NCBI GenBank assembly: GCA_024681435.1
Contig: JAILAV010000090.1
Span: 1-44,930, forward strand
DNA length: 44,930 bases
Direction: 5' to 3'
Source: Pseudobutyrivibrio sp.
Lineage (GTDB): Bacteria; Bacillota; Clostridia; Lachnospirales; Lachnospiraceae
Shown here: positions 2,886 to 38,263 of the stretch, one piece after another
Layout: each line of letters starts with the position of its first letter
How positions within the stretch are numbered: position 1 is the first letter of the stretch
Made by a program: the position numbers and the translations under genes
Notes under the pieces: generated by a model
The model's database searches: none
Told to the model about the DNA's origin: nothing
What the model saw: only the letters and a program-made list of their open reading frames with translations

Positions 2886-4091
2886 TTATTTCCAATCAAT
2901 AAGCATCTGCACTCTATTGAAATAGTTTTGCTGGGAGCCGCTGTGGTCGATTTCTGAGCAGGTGATAAATCCTTTGCCAGCTAGGTCGCGGCTGAGCTTA
3001 GTATAGATGCCTTTGCCGCAGGTTTGCATAGGCATGCAGCCAAAGCTTTGTACGGCCATTACTTTAGGACATCCTTCTAGAATGTGGCCTGCGCACTCTG
3101 CGCCAACAAGCCATCCATCACCTATATTAAAACCAAAACTTATATAAGGACTTACCTGTTCCTTTAGACTAAAGAAATCATCCATGGTATAGAAGCCGTT
3201 TTTGCGAATGGCTCTTATCATGGATTTTTGCATATTCCCAAAGAACTTTTGAGCTAAAGAATACATAGGGCTGAGTAATGTTTTCTCTGACAAAAGATGA
3301 GTATCTACGTAGTACATCAAATACCAAGAGACACCATTAGTGTGTGATTCACAGCCTTGGTCTTCCAGATATTTAATGAGATTCCAGTTGCCGAGATGGC
3401 TGAATTTATGAAAGATTTCCCCAACAATACCAATTCTTTGCTTATTTATATTATTGATGGGTATCTGAGCAAAATCATCTGATATTTCAATGAATCTTCT
3501 TTTGATTTTATGGATAGATAGATTTCGTCCCTCTCTCAAGTCATTTGAAATGAGATTAATCCATTTATCGTATATACGATATGTATCCCCTTCATTTAAT
3601 TCATATGGATGAATATGATTTAGAAGTAGCATCAAAATATCACCGTAATAAATCGATGCAATGGCACGTTTTGCCATGCCAATAGATACAGGAAGAGTCT
3701 CAGACTTTTCGATGCCTCGCACATTGATATTTACAACAGGCACATCTTCAAACCCTGCCTTCTTTAAGGCTCTTTTGATAGTTGTAATATAATTTGAGCC
3801 GCGGCAAGCGTCACCTGCTGTAGCCATAAGAACTCTAACTCGTTTTAAATCATATTTGCCAGATTGCAATGAGGCAACGATTTGTCCTACATTACATATT
3901 GCAGGATAGCACATATCGTTATTTACATATTTTAATCCAGTATCAATGATTCCATCTTCGTTATCTAAAATAATAGGTCGATAATCCTTGGAATAAAAAG
4001 CATACTTCATCAAAGGAAAATGAAAATCTAACATTGATGGAATGAGTAATATATATTTTTCTTTGTCAATCTGTTCGTTAATTTTGTACAT
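2886..4091 (-). CDS. Orphan 2-hydroxyacyl-CoA dehydratase-like Fe-S protein
   Basis: A 401-residue cytoplasmic protein resembling the C-terminal dehydratase-like part (HGD-D type) of the large acyl-CoA dehydratase activase-related proteins of clostridia. Diagnostic stretches are YVNNDMCYPAIC, ATAGDACRGSNY, GDGWLVGAECAGHI and FGCMPMQTCGKG. The conserved cysteines in these segments probably bind an iron-sulfur cluster. The usual fused N-terminal ATPase (BadF/BadG type) is absent here and in the neighbouring genes, so this is either a stand-alone variant or needs an activator encoded elsewhere. It is convergent with the glyoxalase-like gene, and the ATG is preceded only by a weak GGGG. The reaction is unknown; amino-acid fermentation enzymes in this superfamily are distant relatives. 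Confidence 0.7.
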   Translation of the reverse strand: MYKINEQIDKEKYILLIPSMLDFHFPLMKYAFYSKDYRPIILDNEDGIIDTGLKYVNNDMCYPAICNVGQIVASLQSGKYDLKRVRVLMATAGDACRGSNYITTIKRALKKAGFEDVPVVNINVRGIEKSETLPVSIGMAKRAIASIYYGDILMLLLNHIHPYELNEGDTYRIYDKWINLISNDLREGRNLSIHKIKRRFIEISDDFAQIPINNINKQRIGIVGEIFHKFSHLGNWNLIKYLEDQGCESHTNGVSWYLMYYVDTHLLSEKTLLSPMYSLAQKFFGNMQKSMIRAIRKNGFYTMDDFFSLKEQVSPYISFGFNIGDGWLVGAECAGHILEGCPKVMAVQSFGCMPMQTCGKGIYTKLSRDLAGKGFITCSEIDHSGSQQNYFNRVQMLIDWK

Positions 4092-13096: not shown

Positions 13097-14886
13097 CAAC
13101 AAATGAGAAAATAGAGAAGCTCAGAGACTTGATGAGAGAAAGAGGTATAGATATGTATCTTATACCTACAGATGATTTTCACTCATCAGAGTATGTGGGT
13201 GAGCATTTCAAAGAGAGAAGCTTTATTACAGGATTTACAGGTTCAGCTGGAACAGCGATTGTTACCTTAGATGAAGCTCATCTTTGGGTTGATGGACGCT
13301 ACTTCGTTCAGGCTGCAAAGCAGATTGCAGGCTCAGAAGTAATTCTTGAGAGAATGGGAGAGCCTGGAGTTCCAGAAGTGGAAGAGTTCATCGAAAAACA
13401 TTTTCCAGAGGGAGGCTGTCTTGGCTTCGACGGAAGATGTGTTTCAGCTAAGAATGCTTCTAAGTACTTTGATATTTCTCAGGAAAAAGGCGGAGAATTA
13501 TTTACATCAGAGGATTTAGTAGACATTATTTGGGAAGATAGACCAGTTCTTCCAAAGGCCACAACATGGGTACTTGAGGATGAATACTCAGGTGAAAGCA
13601 TGCAGGCTAAAATCTATCGCATCCGCGAAAAGATGAAAAAGAAAAAGGCAGATGCACACTTGGTATCAAGTCTTTATGACATTGCCTACATCTTAAATCT
13701 TAGAGGAAATGATATTGCAAACGTTCCAGTTTTCCTTTCATTTCTACTTATCACAGACGATAGTGTAATTTTATTCACAGATACAACAAATTGGCCTGAA
13801 GAGGCTATGAGATATTTAAACGACAACAGCGTGAAGCTTTACCCATATGATATGGTTTATCATTACATGCAGAGTGCAGATTTAGCTGACCGCAGAGTTC
13901 TTTTAGATCAGAGCATTGTTAATTACAATCTTGTAAAGGCTCTCAAAGGAGCTGCTAAGATTATTGATGGAAAGAACCCATCAGAGCTTATGCGTTCAAT
14001 CAAGAACGAGACAGAGATTAAGAATACAAAGCTTGCTCATATCAAAGATGGTGTTGCTTGTACAAAGGCAATTAAGTACGTTAAGGAAAATATTGGCAAG
14101 GTGCCAATGACAGAAATTACAGTTTCTGACTACTATGAGGCACGCAGAAAAGAGCAGGAAAACTACGTAGATCTTTCCTTTAACACAATCTCAGCTTATG
14201 GACCAAATGCGGCTATGATGCACTACAGCGCAAAGCTAGGTTCAGAGGCAACACTTGCGCCAGAAGGATTCCTTCTTGTAGATTCAGGTGCGCATTATCT
14301 TGAGGGTACCACAGATATCACAAGAACTATTGCACTTGGACCACTTACACAGCAGATGAAGGAGTACTATACAGTAGTTTTACGTTGCCATCTTAGATTA
14401 CTTGCAGCTAACTTCCCTAAGGGGGTTACAGGAGCAAATCTTGATGTATTATCACGAGGCCCAGTTTGGGATATGGGACTTGATTATCGTTGTGGAACAG
14501 GTCATGGTGTTGGCCACATCCTCAATGTTCACGAGGGACCAAATAACTTCCGTTGGAGAGTGCCAAAGGGAACAAATGCAGCAGAGCTTGTTCCTGGTAT
14601 GATTACAACTGACGAGCCAGGACTTTACATTGAAGATGGTTTTGGAATTCGTATTGAAAATGAGCTTCTTTGCGTAGCAGGCGAGACAACAGAGTACGGC
14701 GATTTCCGCCACTTCGAGGCTATTACATATTGCCCAATCGATCTTGATCCTGTTATCCCAGAAATGATGACAGAAGCGGAAAAGAAGACACTTAACGAAT
14801 ATCACGCAATGGTTCGTGAAACATTGAAGCCATACCTCACCGCAGAGGAGTATGCTTGGCTTGAGAAAGAAACTAGGGAGATATAG
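13093..14886 (+). CDS. M24B aminopeptidase (Xaa-Pro aminopeptidase type)
   Basis: A 597-residue metallopeptidase that would remove N-terminal residues preceding proline in peptides. It has the three-domain layout of the long aminopeptidase P group: two creatinase-like N-terminal domains (MRERGIDMYLIPTDDFH; then SLYDIAYILNLRGNDI) and the C-terminal pita-bread domain. Dinuclear metal ligands are visible in order: Asp in LLVDSGAHY, Asp in GTTDITRT, His in GTGHGVGHIL, Glu in TTDEPGLYIE and Glu in RIENELLC. There is no signal peptide, so it is cytoplasmic. Its start overlaps the GH5 stop by 4 nt. It is followed at once by a long hairpin before polA. Confidence 0.92.
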   Translation: MTTNEKIEKLRDLMRERGIDMYLIPTDDFHSSEYVGEHFKERSFITGFTGSAGTAIVTLDEAHLWVDGRYFVQAAKQIAGSEVILERMGEPGVPEVEEFIEKHFPEGGCLGFDGRCVSAKNASKYFDISQEKGGELFTSEDLVDIIWEDRPVLPKATTWVLEDEYSGESMQAKIYRIREKMKKKKADAHLVSSLYDIAYILNLRGNDIANVPVFLSFLLITDDSVILFTDTTNWPEEAMRYLNDNSVKLYPYDMVYHYMQSADLADRRVLLDQSIVNYNLVKALKGAAKIIDGKNPSELMRSIKNETEIKNTKLAHIKDGVACTKAIKYVKENIGKVPMTEITVSDYYEARRKEQENYVDLSFNTISAYGPNAAMMHYSAKLGSEATLAPEGFLLVDSGAHYLEGTTDITRTIALGPLTQQMKEYYTVVLRCHLRLLAANFPKGVTGANLDVLSRGPVWDMGLDYRCGTGHGVGHILNVHEGPNNFRWRVPKGTNAAELVPGMITTDEPGLYIEDGFGIRIENELLCVAGETTEYGDFRHFEAITYCPIDLDPVIPEMMTEAEKKTLNEYHAMVRETLKPYLTAEEYAWLEKETREI

Positions 14887-14889
14887 CGA

Positions 14890-14975
14890 GTCGGTAGCCA
14901 TCAAGCTCTTAGGATTCTCAAGTGAACCATTCTAAGGTGAACGGAGAATCACTAAGGCTTGTAGGCGTAACCGAC
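14890..14975 (+). repeat. Long intercistronic hairpin, copy 1
   Basis: An 86-nt imperfect hairpin begins 3 nt after the aminopeptidase stop. Helices from outside in: GTCGGT/ACCGAC, GCC/GGC, CAAGC/GCTTG, CTTAG/CTAAG and GATTCTC/GAGAATC, with one-nt bulges and a 24-nt apical loop. There is no U-tract, so it is not a simple terminator. The helix pattern parallels the two hairpins at 35537 and 37262, although the sequence differs. Confidence 0.7.
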
Positions 14976-15003
14976 GGGCTTATTGTAACTAGCGGAGGAT
15001 TAG

Positions 15004-33191: not shown

Positions 33192-33233
33192 ATTAGTTGA
33201 AAGTTGTAACTAAAATTGAACGGGAGGGTTTTT

Positions 33234-34733
33234 ATGAAGACACAGTTAAATTACAAGTTTTGGTTTTGTACAGGTTCTCAGGATTTGTACGGCGATGAGT
33301 GCCTTGAGCATGTTGCAGCTCATTCTAAGGAAATAGTAGAGTGCCTCAACAAATCAGGCCGTCTTCCATTTGAGGTTGTATGGAAGCCAACAATGATTAC
33401 AAATGAAGTAATCAGACGCACATTCAACGAGGCTAACAATGATGCAACATGTGCAGGTGTAATCACATGGATGCACACATTCTCACCAGCAAAGTCTTGG
33501 ATTCTTGGACATCAGGAATTCAGAAAGCCACTTTGCCATCTCCACACACAGTATAATCGTGAGATTCCATACGAAACAATGGATATGGATTTCATGAATG
33601 AGAATCAGGCAGCTCATGGTGACAGAGAGTACGCTCACATCCTTTCACGTATGGGAATTGAGAGAAAGACAATCGTTGGTTACTGGCAGGATGCAGAGGT
33701 TCAGGACAAGCTTGCTTCATGGATGCGCACTGCAGTTGGTATTGTTGAGTCTAGTCATATCCGTGTAATGCGTGTAGCTGATAACATGAGAAATGTTGCT
33801 GTTACAGAAGGTGATAAGGTTGAGGCTCAGCTTAAGTTTGGTTGGGAAGTAGATGCTTACCCGGTAAACGAAATCGCTGAGGCAGTAGCTGCAGTTGGCC
33901 AGTCAGATGTTAATGCGCTTGTCGATGAATATTATGGTAAATACGATATCTGCCTTGAGGGTAGAGATCCTGAAGAATTCAAGAAGCATGTTGCAGTTCA
34001 GGCACAGATTGAGCTTGGATTTGAGAGATTTTTGGAGGAGAAGAATTACCAGGCAATCGTTACTCACTTCGGTGATTTAGGTGCACTTAAGCAGCTTCCA
34101 GGTCTTGCAATCCAAAGACTTATGGAAAAAGGATATGGTTTCGGTGCAGAAGGTGACTGGAAGGTTGCTGCAATGGTTCGCCTTATGAAGATTATGACAA
34201 CTGGCATGAAGGATGCAAAGGGTACTTCAATGCTTGAGGATTACACATACAATCTTGTAAAGGGTAAGGAAGGAATCATTCAGGCCCACATGCTTGAGAT
34301 TTGCCCAACAATTTCTGAAGGACCAATTCAGATTAAGGTTCAGTCTCTTTCAATGGGTGATAGAGAAGATCCAGCTCGTCTTGTATTCCAGTCAAAGGAA
34401 GGCAAGGGTATTGCAACATCTCTTATTGACCTTGGAAATAGATTCCGTCTTATCATTCAGGATGTTGATTGCAAAAAGGTTGAGAAGCCACTTCCAAAGC
34501 TTCCTACAGCTATCAATTTCTGGACACCACAGCCAGATTTCTATACAGGAACAGAGGCTTGGCTTCTTGCTGGTGGTGCTCATCACACAGCATTTACATA
34601 TGACCTTACTGCTGAGCAAATGGGTGATTGGGCTGCAGCAATGGGCATTGAAGCTGTATTTATTGACAAAGATACAAAGATTCGCGACTTCAAGCGCGAC
34701 CTAGCTATTGGCAATATTGTATATGGTAAATAG
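33234..34733 (+). CDS. araA: L-arabinose isomerase
   Basis: AraA, 499 residues, isomerises L-arabinose to L-ribulose using Mn2+. Family blocks are present throughout: KFWFCTGSQDLYGDE at the N-terminus, CAGVITWMHTFSPAKSWI, PLCHLHTQYNREIPY, GYGFGAEGDWKVAAMVRLMK with an active-site Glu, MLEDYTYNLVKGKEGIIQAHMLEICP with another catalytic Glu, LDLGNRFRLIIQDVDC-like segments, and GGAHHTAFTYDL carrying a metal His. The start is ATG 33234, behind CGGGAGGG. It heads the araA-tal-araB-araD series, all on the same strand. Regulation is probably by the upstream AraC-type protein. Confidence 0.97.
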   Translation: MKTQLNYKFWFCTGSQDLYGDECLEHVAAHSKEIVECLNKSGRLPFEVVWKPTMITNEVIRRTFNEANNDATCAGVITWMHTFSPAKSWILGHQEFRKPLCHLHTQYNREIPYETMDMDFMNENQAAHGDREYAHILSRMGIERKTIVGYWQDAEVQDKLASWMRTAVGIVESSHIRVMRVADNMRNVAVTEGDKVEAQLKFGWEVDAYPVNEIAEAVAAVGQSDVNALVDEYYGKYDICLEGRDPEEFKKHVAVQAQIELGFERFLEEKNYQAIVTHFGDLGALKQLPGLAIQRLMEKGYGFGAEGDWKVAAMVRLMKIMTTGMKDAKGTSMLEDYTYNLVKGKEGIIQAHMLEICPTISEGPIQIKVQSLSMGDREDPARLVFQSKEGKGIATSLIDLGNRFRLIIQDVDCKKVEKPLPKLPTAINFWTPQPDFYTGTEAWLLAGGAHHTAFTYDLTAEQMGDWAAAMGIEAVFIDKDTKIRDFKRDLAIGNIVYGK

Positions 34734-34873: not shown

Positions 34874-35530
34874 ATGAAGTTATTCGTTGATACTGGAAAA
34901 ATTGAGGACATTAAGAAGGCAAATGATTTAGGAGTAATTTGTGGTGTAACTACAAATCCATCTCTTATCGCAAAGGAAGGTGGACGTGCTCAGGAAGACA
35001 TCCTTAAAGAAATCGCTTCTATCGTTGATGGACCTATCTCAGGTGAGGTTAAGGCTACAACAGTTGACGCTGAAGGCATGATTAAGGAAGGCCGCGAAAT
35101 CGCAGCTATGCATCCAAACATGGTCGTTAAGATTCCTATGACAGCAGAAGGTCTTAAGGCTGTAAAGGTTCTTTCTTCTGAGGGCATCAAGACAAACGTA
35201 ACACTTATCTTCTCTGCAAATCAGGCAATCCTTGCTGCTAATGCAGGTGCAACATATGTTTCACCATTCTTAGGACGTCTTGATGATATCAATATGGCTG
35301 GTATCGACTTAATCCGCGATATTGCAGAGATTTTCGATATCTATGGCTACGAGACAGAAATCATTGCTGCATCAGTTCGTAATCCAATTCACGTTACAGA
35401 CTGCGCACTTGCAGGCGCTCACATTGCAACAGTTCCATACTCTGTAATCGAGACAATGATTAATCATCCTCTCACAACTGCAGGTATCGAGAAATTCCAG
35501 AAGGACTACATCGCAGTATTCGGAGAGTAA
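34874..35530 (+). CDS. tal: Transaldolase (MipB/TalC family)
   Basis: A 218-residue small-type transaldolase that transfers a dihydroxyacetone unit between sugar phosphates in the non-oxidative pentose phosphate pathway. The Schiff-base Lys is in [19 protein letters not shown]. Signatures include [67 protein letters not shown] and [34 protein letters not shown]. The closely related fructose-6-phosphate aldolases share this length; the phenylalanine in SPFLGR fits transaldolase, but the distinction is not certain. Inside the ara cluster it channels xylulose-5-phosphate-derived sugars into glycolysis. AAGGAGAG precedes the ATG. Confidence 0.93.
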
Positions 35531-35536
35531 AGGCTC

Positions 35537-35624
35537 GCTTATTACGGCCTCAATCCTATGATGTTACTCCGCTCAGCGTGGAATGCTTCGCTTGAGTAAC
35601 ACATAGAGATTGATGCCTACAAGC
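35537..35624 (+). repeat. Long intercistronic hairpin, copy 2
   Basis: An 88-nt hairpin 6 nt after the transaldolase stop. Helices from outside in: GCTT/AAGC, GGC/GCC, CAATC/GATTG, CTATG/CATAG and TGTTACTC/GAGTAACA, with a small AGCG/CGCT at the tip. The 72-nt core (35549-35620) differs at only two positions from the core of copy 3. There is no U-tract. Confidence 0.85.
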
Positions 35625-35652
35625 TATTTAAACACTATGGGGGAATTCAACT

Positions 35653-37248
35653 ATGAATATCAATGAAGTAATCGCAGAAGGTACACGCACAGCCCTTGGT
35701 ATTGAGTTCGGATCAACACGTATTAAAGCGGTTTTAGTTGATGGGGACAACAAGGTTCTTGCTCAGGGGGATCATGAGTGGGAGAACCATTTAGACAATG
35801 GCATCTGGACATATCCACTTGATGAGGTATGGGCAGGTGTTCAGGATTGCTATGCAAAGCTTAAGAAGGATGTAAGCGATAAGTATGATGTAAAGCTTAC
35901 AAAAATTGGTGCAATCGGCTTTTCTGCTATGATGCACGGATATCTTGCTTTCGACAAGGATGATAATCTTCTAGTTCCATTTAGAACATGGAGAAACACA
36001 ATCACTGGCGAAGCTGCAGCAGAGCTTAGCAAGGAACTTAATTTCAATATGCCTCAGCGCTGGAGTATTTCTCACTACTATCAGTGCATTTTAAATAAGG
36101 AAGAGCACGTTCCAAATGTAGCTTATTTCATGACACTTGCATGCTATGTTCACTATAAGATGACAGGCAAGAAGGTTGCAGGCGTTGGCGAAGCATCTGG
36201 TATGTTTCCTATTGATTCAAAGACATGCAAATATGATGCAGCCATGCTTGAGAAATTCAACAAGCTTGCGGCAGCACATGGCGTAACTACAAAGGTTGAA
36301 GACCTTCTTCCAGAAGTTCTTGTAGCAGGAGATGATGCAGGAAATCTTACAGAAGAGGGAGCAAAGCTTCTTGATCCAACAGGAGAGCTAGAGGCAGGTT
36401 GTCCACTTGCTCCACCAGAAGGTGATGCAGGTACTGGAATGGTTGCTACAAATGCCGTTTCAGTTGGAACAGGAAATGTTTCTGCTGGTACATCAGTATT
36501 TTCAATGGTTGTACTGGAAAAAGCTCTTTCAAAACCATATGAGGAAATCGATATGGTAACAACACCAACAGGTGAAGCAGTAGCCATGGTTCACTGCAAC
36601 AACTGTACATCAGACCTTAATGCTTGGGTTGGTATTTTTAAGGAATTTGCTGATGCATTCGGTGTTGATATCTCAATGAACGATATTTATGGCACACTTT
36701 ATCGCAAAGCTCTTACAGAAGATGCAAATTGCGGAGGAGTGTTATCTTACAACTATTTCGGCGGTGAGCCAGTGGTTGGTGTAAATGAAGGTCGTCCAAT
36801 GATTGTTCGTCAGCCTGATGCTAAATTTACACTTGCAAACTTTATGCGTTCAAACCTTTATGGTGCACTTGGCGTTCTTAAAATTGGTAATGATATTCTC
36901 TTGAAGCAGGAGAAGGTTAATATCAAGTCTATCACTGGACATGGTGGATTCTTTAAGACAAAGGGCGTAGGACAGTCTGTACTTGCAGCAGCCCTCAACG
37001 CACCAATTACAGTTATGGCCACAGCCGGCGAAGGTGGAGCTTGGGGTATGGCAGTACTTGCAAACTTCTGTATTCGCGATGACAAGTCACAAAAGCTTCA
37101 GAGTTACCTTGATGAAAAAGTATTTGCAGGACAGGAATCTACTACAATGGAGCCAGATCCAGTTATGGTAAAGGGCTACGATGAGTGGATTGCAGAATAC
37201 AAGAAAGCACTCAAAGCTGAGGCTGCAGCAGTAGACAACTGGAGATAA
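35653..37248 (+). CDS. araB: FGGY-family carbohydrate kinase, probable ribulokinase
   Basis: A 531-residue sugar kinase of the FGGY/actin fold. The first phosphate loop is TALGIEFGSTRIKAVLVDGD; the second nucleotide motif is VSVGTGNVSAGTSVFSMVV; the adenosine motif lies in KSITGHGGFFKTKGVGQSVLAAALNAPITV. It is longer than and clearly different from the E. coli AraB type, so the name rests on position between araA and araD, where an L-ribulokinase is required to make L-ribulose-5-phosphate. Xylulokinase is the main alternative. It is preceded and followed by almost identical long hairpins. GGGGGAAT lies upstream of the ATG, a mediocre ribosome site. Confidence 0.82.
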   Translation: MNINEVIAEGTRTALGIEFGSTRIKAVLVDGDNKVLAQGDHEWENHLDNGIWTYPLDEVWAGVQDCYAKLKKDVSDKYDVKLTKIGAIGFSAMMHGYLAFDKDDNLLVPFRTWRNTITGEAAAELSKELNFNMPQRWSISHYYQCILNKEEHVPNVAYFMTLACYVHYKMTGKKVAGVGEASGMFPIDSKTCKYDAAMLEKFNKLAAAHGVTTKVEDLLPEVLVAGDDAGNLTEEGAKLLDPTGELEAGCPLAPPEGDAGTGMVATNAVSVGTGNVSAGTSVFSMVVLEKALSKPYEEIDMVTTPTGEAVAMVHCNNCTSDLNAWVGIFKEFADAFGVDISMNDIYGTLYRKALTEDANCGGVLSYNYFGGEPVVGVNEGRPMIVRQPDAKFTLANFMRSNLYGALGVLKIGNDILLKQEKVNIKSITGHGGFFKTKGVGQSVLAAALNAPITVMATAGEGGAWGMAVLANFCIRDDKSQKLQSYLDEKVFAGQESTTMEPDPVMVKGYDEWIAEYKKALKAEAAAVDNWR

Positions 37249-37261
37249 TATACGCTGAGAA

Positions 37262-37349
37262 GCTGGTTACTGTCTCAATCCTATGATGTTACTCCGCTCA
37301 GCGTAGAATGCTTCGCTTGAGTAACACATAGAGATTGATACCTACCAGC
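37262..37349 (+). repeat. Long intercistronic hairpin, copy 3
   Basis: An 88-nt hairpin 13 nt after the kinase stop. The outer helix is GCTGGT/ACCAGC; then GT/AC, CAATC/GATTG, CTATG/CATAG and TGTTACTC/GAGTAACA. Its core 37274-37345 matches copy 2 at 70 of 72 positions. The outer helix has a different sequence from copy 2 but still pairs. Confidence 0.85.
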
Positions 37350-37400
37350 ATTTAATATTACAGCTATGCTTTCCAGTATTGGCTATACGAGGAGAAAAAA

Positions 37401-38096
37401 ATGTTAGAAGAACTTAAGAAACAGGTATATGAAGCAAACATGGAGCTTCCTAAGAGAGGTCTTGTTACCTATACTTGGGGTAATGTATCAGGTATCGACC
37501 GCGAGAGTGGAATCTTTGCTATCAAGCCATCAGGCGTTGAGTATGAAGATTTGAAGCCAGAAGATATGGTTCTTGTAAATCTTGAGGGTGAAGTTGTAGA
37601 GGGCAAGTACAGACCTAGCTCAGATACAGCCACTCACGTTGAGCTCTACAAGAAATATGAGAATATCGGTGGCGTAGTTCACACACATTCTACATATGCT
37701 GTAGCTTGGGCTCAGGCTGGTAGAGATATTCCTCTATATGGAACAACACATGCAGATTATTTCTGCGGAACAATTCCATGCACAAGAAACCTTACTCCAG
37801 AGGAAATTGATGAAGCTTATGAGGTTAACACTGGTAAGGTAATCATCGAGACCTTTGAGGAAAGAGGTATTAATACAAAATATGTGCCAGGTGTTATCTG
37901 CAAGAATCACGGCCCATTCACATGGGGCAAGGATGCAGACCAGGCAGTATACAATGCAGTTGTACTTGAAGAGGTTGCAAAGATGGCTCTCTTCACAGAG
38001 CAGGTTAACCCACAGGTAGAGCCAGCTCCAGATTGTATTCGCGATAAGCATTTCAATCGTAAACATGGTGCAAATGCATATTATGGACAGAATTAA
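37401..38096 (+). CDS. araD: L-ribulose-5-phosphate 4-epimerase
   Basis: AraD, 231 residues, converts L-ribulose-5-phosphate to D-xylulose-5-phosphate, completing arabinose catabolism. It is a class II aldolase-fold, Zn-dependent enzyme. Substrate-binding blocks are [22 protein letters not shown] and [15 protein letters not shown]; zinc ligands are the two His in [16 protein letters not shown] and His in [12 protein letters not shown]; the catalytic Asp/Tyr region is YGTTHADYF and the C-terminus ([10 protein letters not shown]). Length matches the family. ACGAGGAGA precedes the ATG. It is the last gene of the ara series and ends before a strong terminator. Confidence 0.96.
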
Positions 38097-38177: not shown

Positions 38178-38206
38178 TTGACAAATACCCCTAGAGGGTA
38201 TATCAT
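38178..38206 (+). promoter_or_regulatory. Promoter of the copper operon
   Basis: TTGACA and TATCAT are separated by exactly 17 nt. The spacer is occupied by the first CsoR-type operator. Confidence 0.8.
38185..38201. promoter_or_regulatory. CsoR operator 1
   Basis: ATACCCCTAGAGGGTAT is a near-perfect inverted repeat of the TACCCC...GGGGTA type recognised by CsoR proteins. It lies between -35 and -10, so binding would block RNA polymerase until Cu(I) releases the repressor. Confidence 0.8.
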
Positions 38207-38218
38207 ACATTTTAGATG

Positions 38219-38235
38219 ATACCCCAAGGGGGTAT
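38219..38235. promoter_or_regulatory. CsoR operator 2
   Basis: ATACCCCAAGGGGGTAT is a second inverted repeat of the same type, centred 34 bp (about three helical turns) downstream of the first, just after the expected transcription start. Confidence 0.78.
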
Positions 38236-38263
38236 ATCTGTCTTATGTAAAAGGAGATAAAAC

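Follow-up and report, generated by a model that had tools for sequence, protein, structure and literature searches.

The ara gene cluster and its hairpins

The window analysed here is a stretch of 44,930 nucleotides from Pseudobutyrivibrio sp. (assembly GCA_024681435.1, contig JAILAV010000090.1; genome G000 below). It carries an ara cluster with the gene order AraC-family regulator, araA, tal, araB, araD. The L-arabinose isomerase gene araA (33216..34733; Pfam PF02610, PF24856 and PF11762) is followed by tal, a gene of the transaldolase/F6P-aldolase family (34874..35530; PF00923, E 2.6e-62), by an FGGY-family kinase gene read as ribulokinase, araB (35653..37248; Pfam FGGY_N and FGGY_C), and by a class II aldolase-family gene read as araD (37401..38096; PF00596, E 3.4e-54), all on the plus strand.

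A first-pass annotation, made from the letters of the window, had described two nearly identical 88-nt hairpins flanking araB. They are present at 35537-35624 and 37262-37349, with 92% identity over 88 nt. Copy 1, in the tal-araB gap, follows directly on the tal stop; the match to the covariance model described below (35529..35630, minus strand; cmsearch 103.1 bits, E 1.6e-30) overlaps the stop codon by 2 nt, and the core runs on the minus strand from GTAG at 35620-35617 to GTAAT at 35545-35541. Copy 2 lies in the araB-araD gap, where the match (37254..37355, minus strand; 100.4 bits, E 1.3e-29) starts 5 nt past the araB stop and the core runs, again on the minus strand, from GTAG at 37345-37342 to GTAAC at 37270-37266. 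Read on this strand, copy 1 is closed by a G.U wobble (GTAAT replacing GTAAC), and copy 2 has one broken pair in the helix next to the outermost one.

Stretches of 101 nt around the two copies folded with z-scores of -5.1 (copy 1) and -7.4 (copy 2) on the plus strand and -6.5 for both on the minus strand, relative to shuffled sequences. In each of these four folds, none of 200 shuffles was as stable. The compensatory change noted in the first pass was confirmed, C35548-G35615 in copy 1 being replaced by U37273-A37340 in copy 2, and the outermost helices indeed differ in letters while pairing in both copies. Neither copy is followed by a U-tract, as had been claimed, which speaks against a plain terminator at these two sites.

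The window holds a third copy (14884..14983, plus strand; 99.4 bits, E 2.5e-29), between an M24-peptidase gene (called pepP here) and polA. Its GTAG strand is sense to both neighbours, and its inner stem has further double changes.

As a separate observation, the stretch at 38185-38238 contains two 20-nt direct copies of a near-palindrome (ATACCCC..GGGGTAT), 34 nt apart, immediately upstream of genes for a metal-sensitive repressor (PF02583) and a heavy-metal P-type ATPase. These are perhaps the operator of the repressor.

A hairpin family in Pseudobutyrivibrio

BLASTN with the hairpin core found 14 places in the source genome, 13 with an E-value no higher than 5.8e-6. The consensus of these copies, written for the minus strand of the window, is GTAG...CAAGC-T-CT...CTCAAGCGAAGC-loop-GCTGAGCGGAG...AGGCTTG...GTAAC. 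The unit measures about 76-78 nt from GTAG to GTAAC and, with the outer stem, about 100 nt overall, in five helices.

A covariance model of 101 positions, trained on the 14 copies, was run against the genome and its relatives, as proposed in the first pass. It gave 55 matches in G000 and many across the genus. Matches were found in 27 of 29 genomes of Pseudobutyrivibrio, a genus of gut bacteria, including all 21 of good quality, with 6 to 132 per genome where present; G015 and G016 had no match to the model. At most 140 candidates per genome were scored in this search, and divergent apices score weakly. One such member, in locus L063, received only 22.7 bits, so that the copy numbers per genome are probably underestimates and should be read as lower bounds. 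This member (G028, tal-araB gap, 3116-3184 of the locus) combines the usual base with a much longer, different apex, as does another G028 copy with 139 nt between the GT and AC of its base. The apex letters of these long members are partly shared.

Beyond the genus, under stricter filters, the only match in a sample of 150 genomes from 150 genera of the family was the source genome itself (none in 149 others), and the same was true for a class sample of 291 genomes (none in 290 others), the two samples overlapping in some genomes. The exact core was found in 30 stretches of a collection of 84,980 species, of which 29 are titled Pseudobutyrivibrio and one Butyrivibrio fibrisolvens 16/4. At the sensitivity used and in the samples searched, the hairpin family is confined to Pseudobutyrivibrio.

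Comparison with Rfam, also suggested in the first pass, yielded no family for the hairpins: there were no matches in the window, and in five loci with copies only three weak ones (E 2.3-3.3), none over a hairpin. Among the matches listed in the open-licence literature, we found no report of such a repeat for Lachnospiraceae, Pseudobutyrivibrio or Butyrivibrio.

Structure is conserved over letters

Two copies alone are weak evidence for covariation, and it is the family that makes the evidence overwhelming. Already in the alignment of the first 14 copies, 13 of the 29 predicted pairs were doubly changed. Pairing statistics were computed from the 53 matches in 1.2 Mb of G028, the 22.7-bit match included. 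Here 96.8% of 1,479 cells were paired, 24 of the 29 pairs showed a double change, and doubly changed cells numbered 343, versus 83.8 in shuffles. With the partners shifted by up to three columns, pairing fell to 27-40% (maximum 40.4%). Fitting the alignment to the covariance model favours structure, but the contrast is far larger than that effect.

Other positions retain their letters. In the 53 rows, the tag has G at its first and T at its second place without exception, and G (50 rows) or A (3 rows) at its fourth; GTA of the tag was invariant in all 14 rows of the first alignment. The tag is paired, its G with C in 52 rows and with U in one, its T with A in all 53. Among unpaired features, the inner stem keeps GA on one side in 36 rows and on its other side in 38, a single-T bulge persists in 49, and GTA is found at the 3' base in 48.

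Among 119 high-scoring copies, GT wobbles on the GTAG strand outnumber AC mismatches 61:11; the model scores GT above AC and the alignments are fitted to it, a bias that was limited by using high-scoring rows only. The excess suggests that it is the GTAG strand that folds. In the full set, the GT:AC counts were 80:14 for sense copies, 13:1 for copies in convergent gaps and 10:4 for antisense copies. Strong covariation alone does not prove a regulatory RNA.

Gene context and orientation

We placed 171 distinct copies relative to genes called by a simple codon-score script, leaving out opposite-strand shadows and loci fetched twice. Of these, 131 lie between co-directional genes, 31 in convergent and 2 in divergent gaps, 6 at contig edges and 1 in an open reading frame. 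Of the 164 intergenic copies flanked by called genes, 2 thus fall in divergent gaps. Such gaps make up 13% of the usable intergenic length in the first 1.2 Mb of G028 and contain none of the 52 copies there (chance about 8e-4; 52 of the 53 matches, the 22.7-bit one dropped).

Between co-directional genes, the GTAG strand is sense in 97 and antisense in 34 copies. The ratio was 55:10 in G028, weaker in the source genome (15:9), and 27:15 elsewhere. Both ara copies have the antisense, that is, the minority orientation. In sense copies, several of which have an AGGAG ribosome site in their flank, a median of 19 nt separates the end of the model match from the start codon that follows; in antisense copies the match starts a median of 4.5 nt past the upstream stop. 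Where two copies form a close pair, the GTAG ends face each other on the inside (10 of 10). By a crude rule (outer stem of at least 7 bp and a T-rich tail on one side), 18 of the 160 copies that could be parsed out of 171 are terminator-like, 10 of them in convergent gaps.

Occupancy of orthologous sites and nesting

The first-pass reading depended on further copies and on pairing in orthologous ara clusters, and both were found. A counted copy is present in 20 of 27 ara loci, within 500 nt of araB in 19 of them, and both orientations occur. G010, for example, has a copy in the araB-araD gap with almost the same core as copy 2. The other 7 loci have no counted copy, and in some species the gaps are short and empty. 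The counts leave out 7 of 42 matches, namely 4 opposite-strand shadows and 3 weak matches (L063, L067 and L070); the latter are probably diverged family members.

Between pepP and polA, 7 of 28 readable gaps are occupied, and in 5 of the 28 the stop and start codons overlap. Some gaps keep short remnants of the hairpin base, as read by eye. Three proteins were used to build a quick tree, with 6 of 26 inner branches open; on it, occupancy changed 3 to 7 times for every one of the six site/orientation states scored.

In the gap between an ABC gene and ftsH, readable in 27 cases, we read the terminator by eye from the sequence. The core is inside the terminator stem in 6, a plain stem-loop is present in 17, none is visible in 3, and one, G010, has another long apex. 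Of the filled terminators, those of G000, G028 and G022 carry the core antisense, those of G027, G001 and G026 in sense orientation; the apices of G022 (41 bits) and G026 (34 bits) are divergent. The sister genomes G012 (plain) and G022 (filled) have a common terminator stem, CAGCTTGT/ACAAGCTG. Four gaps fold with one hairpin in the loop of a second: two follow the L183 query gene (G022 and G003), and two lie between araB and araD (G006 and G008).

Other repeats were seen in the same surveys. A second, G+C-rich palindromic intergenic element (with repeated letters such as GCGCGAG..AGGGCCC..CCGGCGGG) occurs in the same gaps in several species (beside araB in L055, L057, L059-L062, L064 and L066; also L314 and L316), and in G011 it apparently lies inside the base of a GTAG-tagged hairpin. 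Downstream of the query gene in L289 (G009), two almost identical whole hairpins with their flanks stand in tandem in one gap, which looks like a local duplication. In L273-L300, the gap downstream of the query gene often contains, in many of the genomes compared, a short stem-loop that recurs (CATCAAAGGCGATGC..GCATCG) ahead of the following gene. It looks like an attenuator or terminator, and the gene after it may code for a LivH-type permease.

Core and outer stem vary in part separately

The two ara copies share the core and differ in their outer stems. Five G028 copies at unrelated sites likewise have 94-99% identity from GTAG to GTAAC and varied outer stems (GTTG/CAAC in two copies, one of them terminator-like, and GTCA/TGAC, ACTG/CAGT and GCTG/CAGC). 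We could parse 121 of the 171 copies for this comparison; in 93 of the 121, all four outer pairs are Watson-Crick. Among 25 non-orthologous near-identical pairs of copies, the rate of difference per site was 0.31 in the four outer pairs and 0.038 in the core; 16 pairs of copies differ in these outer pairs and 9 do not.

Near-identical copies thus often differ, in a compensated manner, in the stem outside GTAG...GTAAC, yet share letters farther out. Simple movement of one fixed unit is therefore insufficient, and gene conversion could explain the pattern. Such partial independence of core and outer stem would be expected if cores were inserted into hairpins already present, or if resident copies exchanged cores by gene conversion. 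A search of 1.6 Mb with three flank motifs for empty 'shells' found a single candidate, which retains a GTAAC end and is better read as a deletion remnant than as a pre-existing target. Empty shells as a general target are thus not supported, which makes the loop-target model less convincing where the outer stem has 6 bp. That model is best supported for the terminators and the nested cases.

Search for a Y1 transposase or autonomous element

A search with Pfam Y1_Tnp (PF01797), which detected E. coli Y1 in a control, identified the Y1 (HUH) transposase domain in 10 of the 29 genus genomes. It was absent from 19, including G000 (81% complete) and G003, G011, G012 and G022, which are 96-99% complete and have more than 70 copies each. 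At 8 Y1 loci, the surrounding sequence (about 1.5 kb, less where the contig ended) held no hairpin copy. A strict REPtron mobilised by a RAYT is therefore unsupported. In 1.2 Mb of G028, we found neither an autonomous element with a gene between hairpin arms nor paired hairpin ends 200-3000 nt apart.

Comparison with known repeats

The hairpins have much in common with the GTAG-tagged REPs as characterised in PMC3733652. Those REPs occur chiefly between unidirectional and convergent genes. Shared features are a palindrome with GTAG at one of its ends, numerous copies in intergenic positions with a preference for co-directional and convergent gaps, and pairs in opposite orientation, our pairs with GTAG inside (10 of 10) corresponding to the TT type (PMC3733652). 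Imperfect stems and sub-families with complementary stem changes and GT pairs are common to both as well, and the GTAG-23 elements of T. roseum are described there as sitting within small palindromes (PMC3733652).

The differences lie in length, tag and enzyme. The REPs described there are 20-40 bp long, most with stems of 6-9 bp, and their tag is unpaired (PMC3733652), whereas the hairpins here have about 100 nt in five helices and the GT of the tag pairs with the AC of the 3' GTAAC. REPs are linked to Y1 (RAYT) transposases (PMC8266576, PMC3733652), in contrast to the 19 of 29 genomes that lack Y1 here. The main text of PMC3733652 contains neither 'Firmicutes' nor 'Clostridi'. E. coli-type (group 2) REPs, according to PMC8266576, are 20-50 nt long, and TnpAREP recognises the single-stranded REP but not its inverse. 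As in our hairpins, GTAG precedes an imperfect stem-loop in which an irregular zone is conserved (PMC8266576); they have TnpAREP, whereas none of the 8 Y1 loci here contained a hairpin copy. Because the length of 20-40 bp and the unpaired tag fail and the transposase link is lacking, we do not file the hairpins as REPs; they are a new variant of the GTAG-tagged REP kind.

MITEs such as NEMIS, ERIC and RUP are 70-300 bp long, lie beside genes and form hairpins in mRNA. The hairpins described here resemble them in size, gene adjacency and hairpins in mRNA, but no terminal inverted repeats in common with an autonomous insertion sequence were found in the 1.2 Mb of one genome searched. In behaviour, we take the nearest Gram-positive parallel to be the bcr repeats of the Bacillus cereus group. 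NEMIS, ERIC and RUP are named as MITEs in PMC3733652. For bcr1-bcr18, PMC3446304 describes bcr1-bcr3 as MITE-like and present in UTRs and within operons, some families as having conserved secondary structure, and only bcr3 as correlated with the mRNA decay rate. Set side by side by description only, bcr repeats and the hairpins are both group-specific and intergenic (PMC3446304).

Probable origin and possible effects of the hairpins

The hairpins form a dispersed family under structural constraint, with a bias to intergenic positions, varying occupancy, and locations in terminator loops and within each other. They are likely to be genus-specific, high-copy, GTAG-tagged, REP-like extragenic palindromes that are mobile or recombining, the ara copies being such insertions. 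The covariation reported in the first pass and its option of a REP-like or MITE-like element are supported by the many copies in genome and genus, the structure-preserving changes and the gain and loss at orthologous sites. Its ara-specific roles are not. Processing or segmental stability of the ara operon mRNA is disfavoured as the reason for the hairpins by the 7 of 27 ara loci that lack a copy, by the varying orientation, and by the antisense orientation of both copies in the window. A dedicated ara regulatory RNA also disagrees with the copies beside unrelated genes. In this reading, the ara copies are insertions antisense to the usual orientation of the family and not dedicated ara regulators.

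The core would spread, or be exchanged, by a process that recognises the folded single strand, namely the one carrying GTAG, with the loops of hairpins or terminators as favoured landing places. In mRNA, the copies may act passively, as stable hairpins between cistrons, and might slow 3'-to-5' decay or sit before the ribosome site of the next gene. At ara, they could shield the message upstream or interfere with reinitiation by ribosomes, and effects on the ara mRNA are in this sense possible.

The covariation and the sense bias could alternatively mean a selected RNA, that is, a cis-acting intercistronic element that folds on the sense strand and serves to stabilise or process the operon mRNA or to adjust how strongly the following gene is translated, with mobility incidental. 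Such an element would account for the 97 of 131 co-directional copies in sense orientation, the short distance to the next start codon with several AGGAG sites, the GT excess in sense copies (80:14), and the unpaired features that persist while helices change (GA and the single-T bulge). However, orthologous gaps are often empty, and at pepP-polA the genes even overlap in 5 of 28; antisense copies are common in G000 (9 of 24), and copies also lie within terminators and within each other. Selection on the transcript should moreover reverse the wobble bias in antisense copies, which show 10 GT to 4 AC instead, numbers too small to be firm. Overall, we consider this explanation unlikely.

Covariation could also arise without selection on structure, if fold-back template switching matched the arms of an otherwise inert repeat. 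The prevalence of fully Watson-Crick outer pairs (93 of 121) and their fast change between near-identical copies are in agreement with this, but such matching of the arms would be expected to remove unpaired features that most copies retain (bulges, the GA.GA opposition, the asymmetric basal loop), and the excess of GT over AC is strand-specific. As the same unpaired positions are retained in most rows, template switching is disfavoured as the sole cause, and we regard it as quite improbable. Least probable are ordinary intrinsic terminators or attenuators that resemble each other by chance: 18 of 160 copies are terminator-like by the crude rule, 10 of them in convergent gaps, but the other 142 are not, the ara copies have no U-tract, 131 of 171 copies lie between co-directional genes, and the core recurs as a specific sequence that was seen in a single genus.

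Within the preferred reading of mobile or recombining REP-like palindromes, a more specific version is that a non-Y1 enzyme moves the folded GTAG strand into hairpin loops, those of intrinsic terminators and of its own copies, each copy taking its outer stem from the host hairpin. We put this forward tentatively, as doubtful but worth stating. If true, transposition of hairpin into hairpin would build nested structures and modify terminators across a genus.

The data set allows one site to be followed through 29 species in its empty and nested states and when filled in either orientation. REP-like spread without a Y1 transposase, hairpin loops as targets, and effects on operon mRNA thereby become testable.
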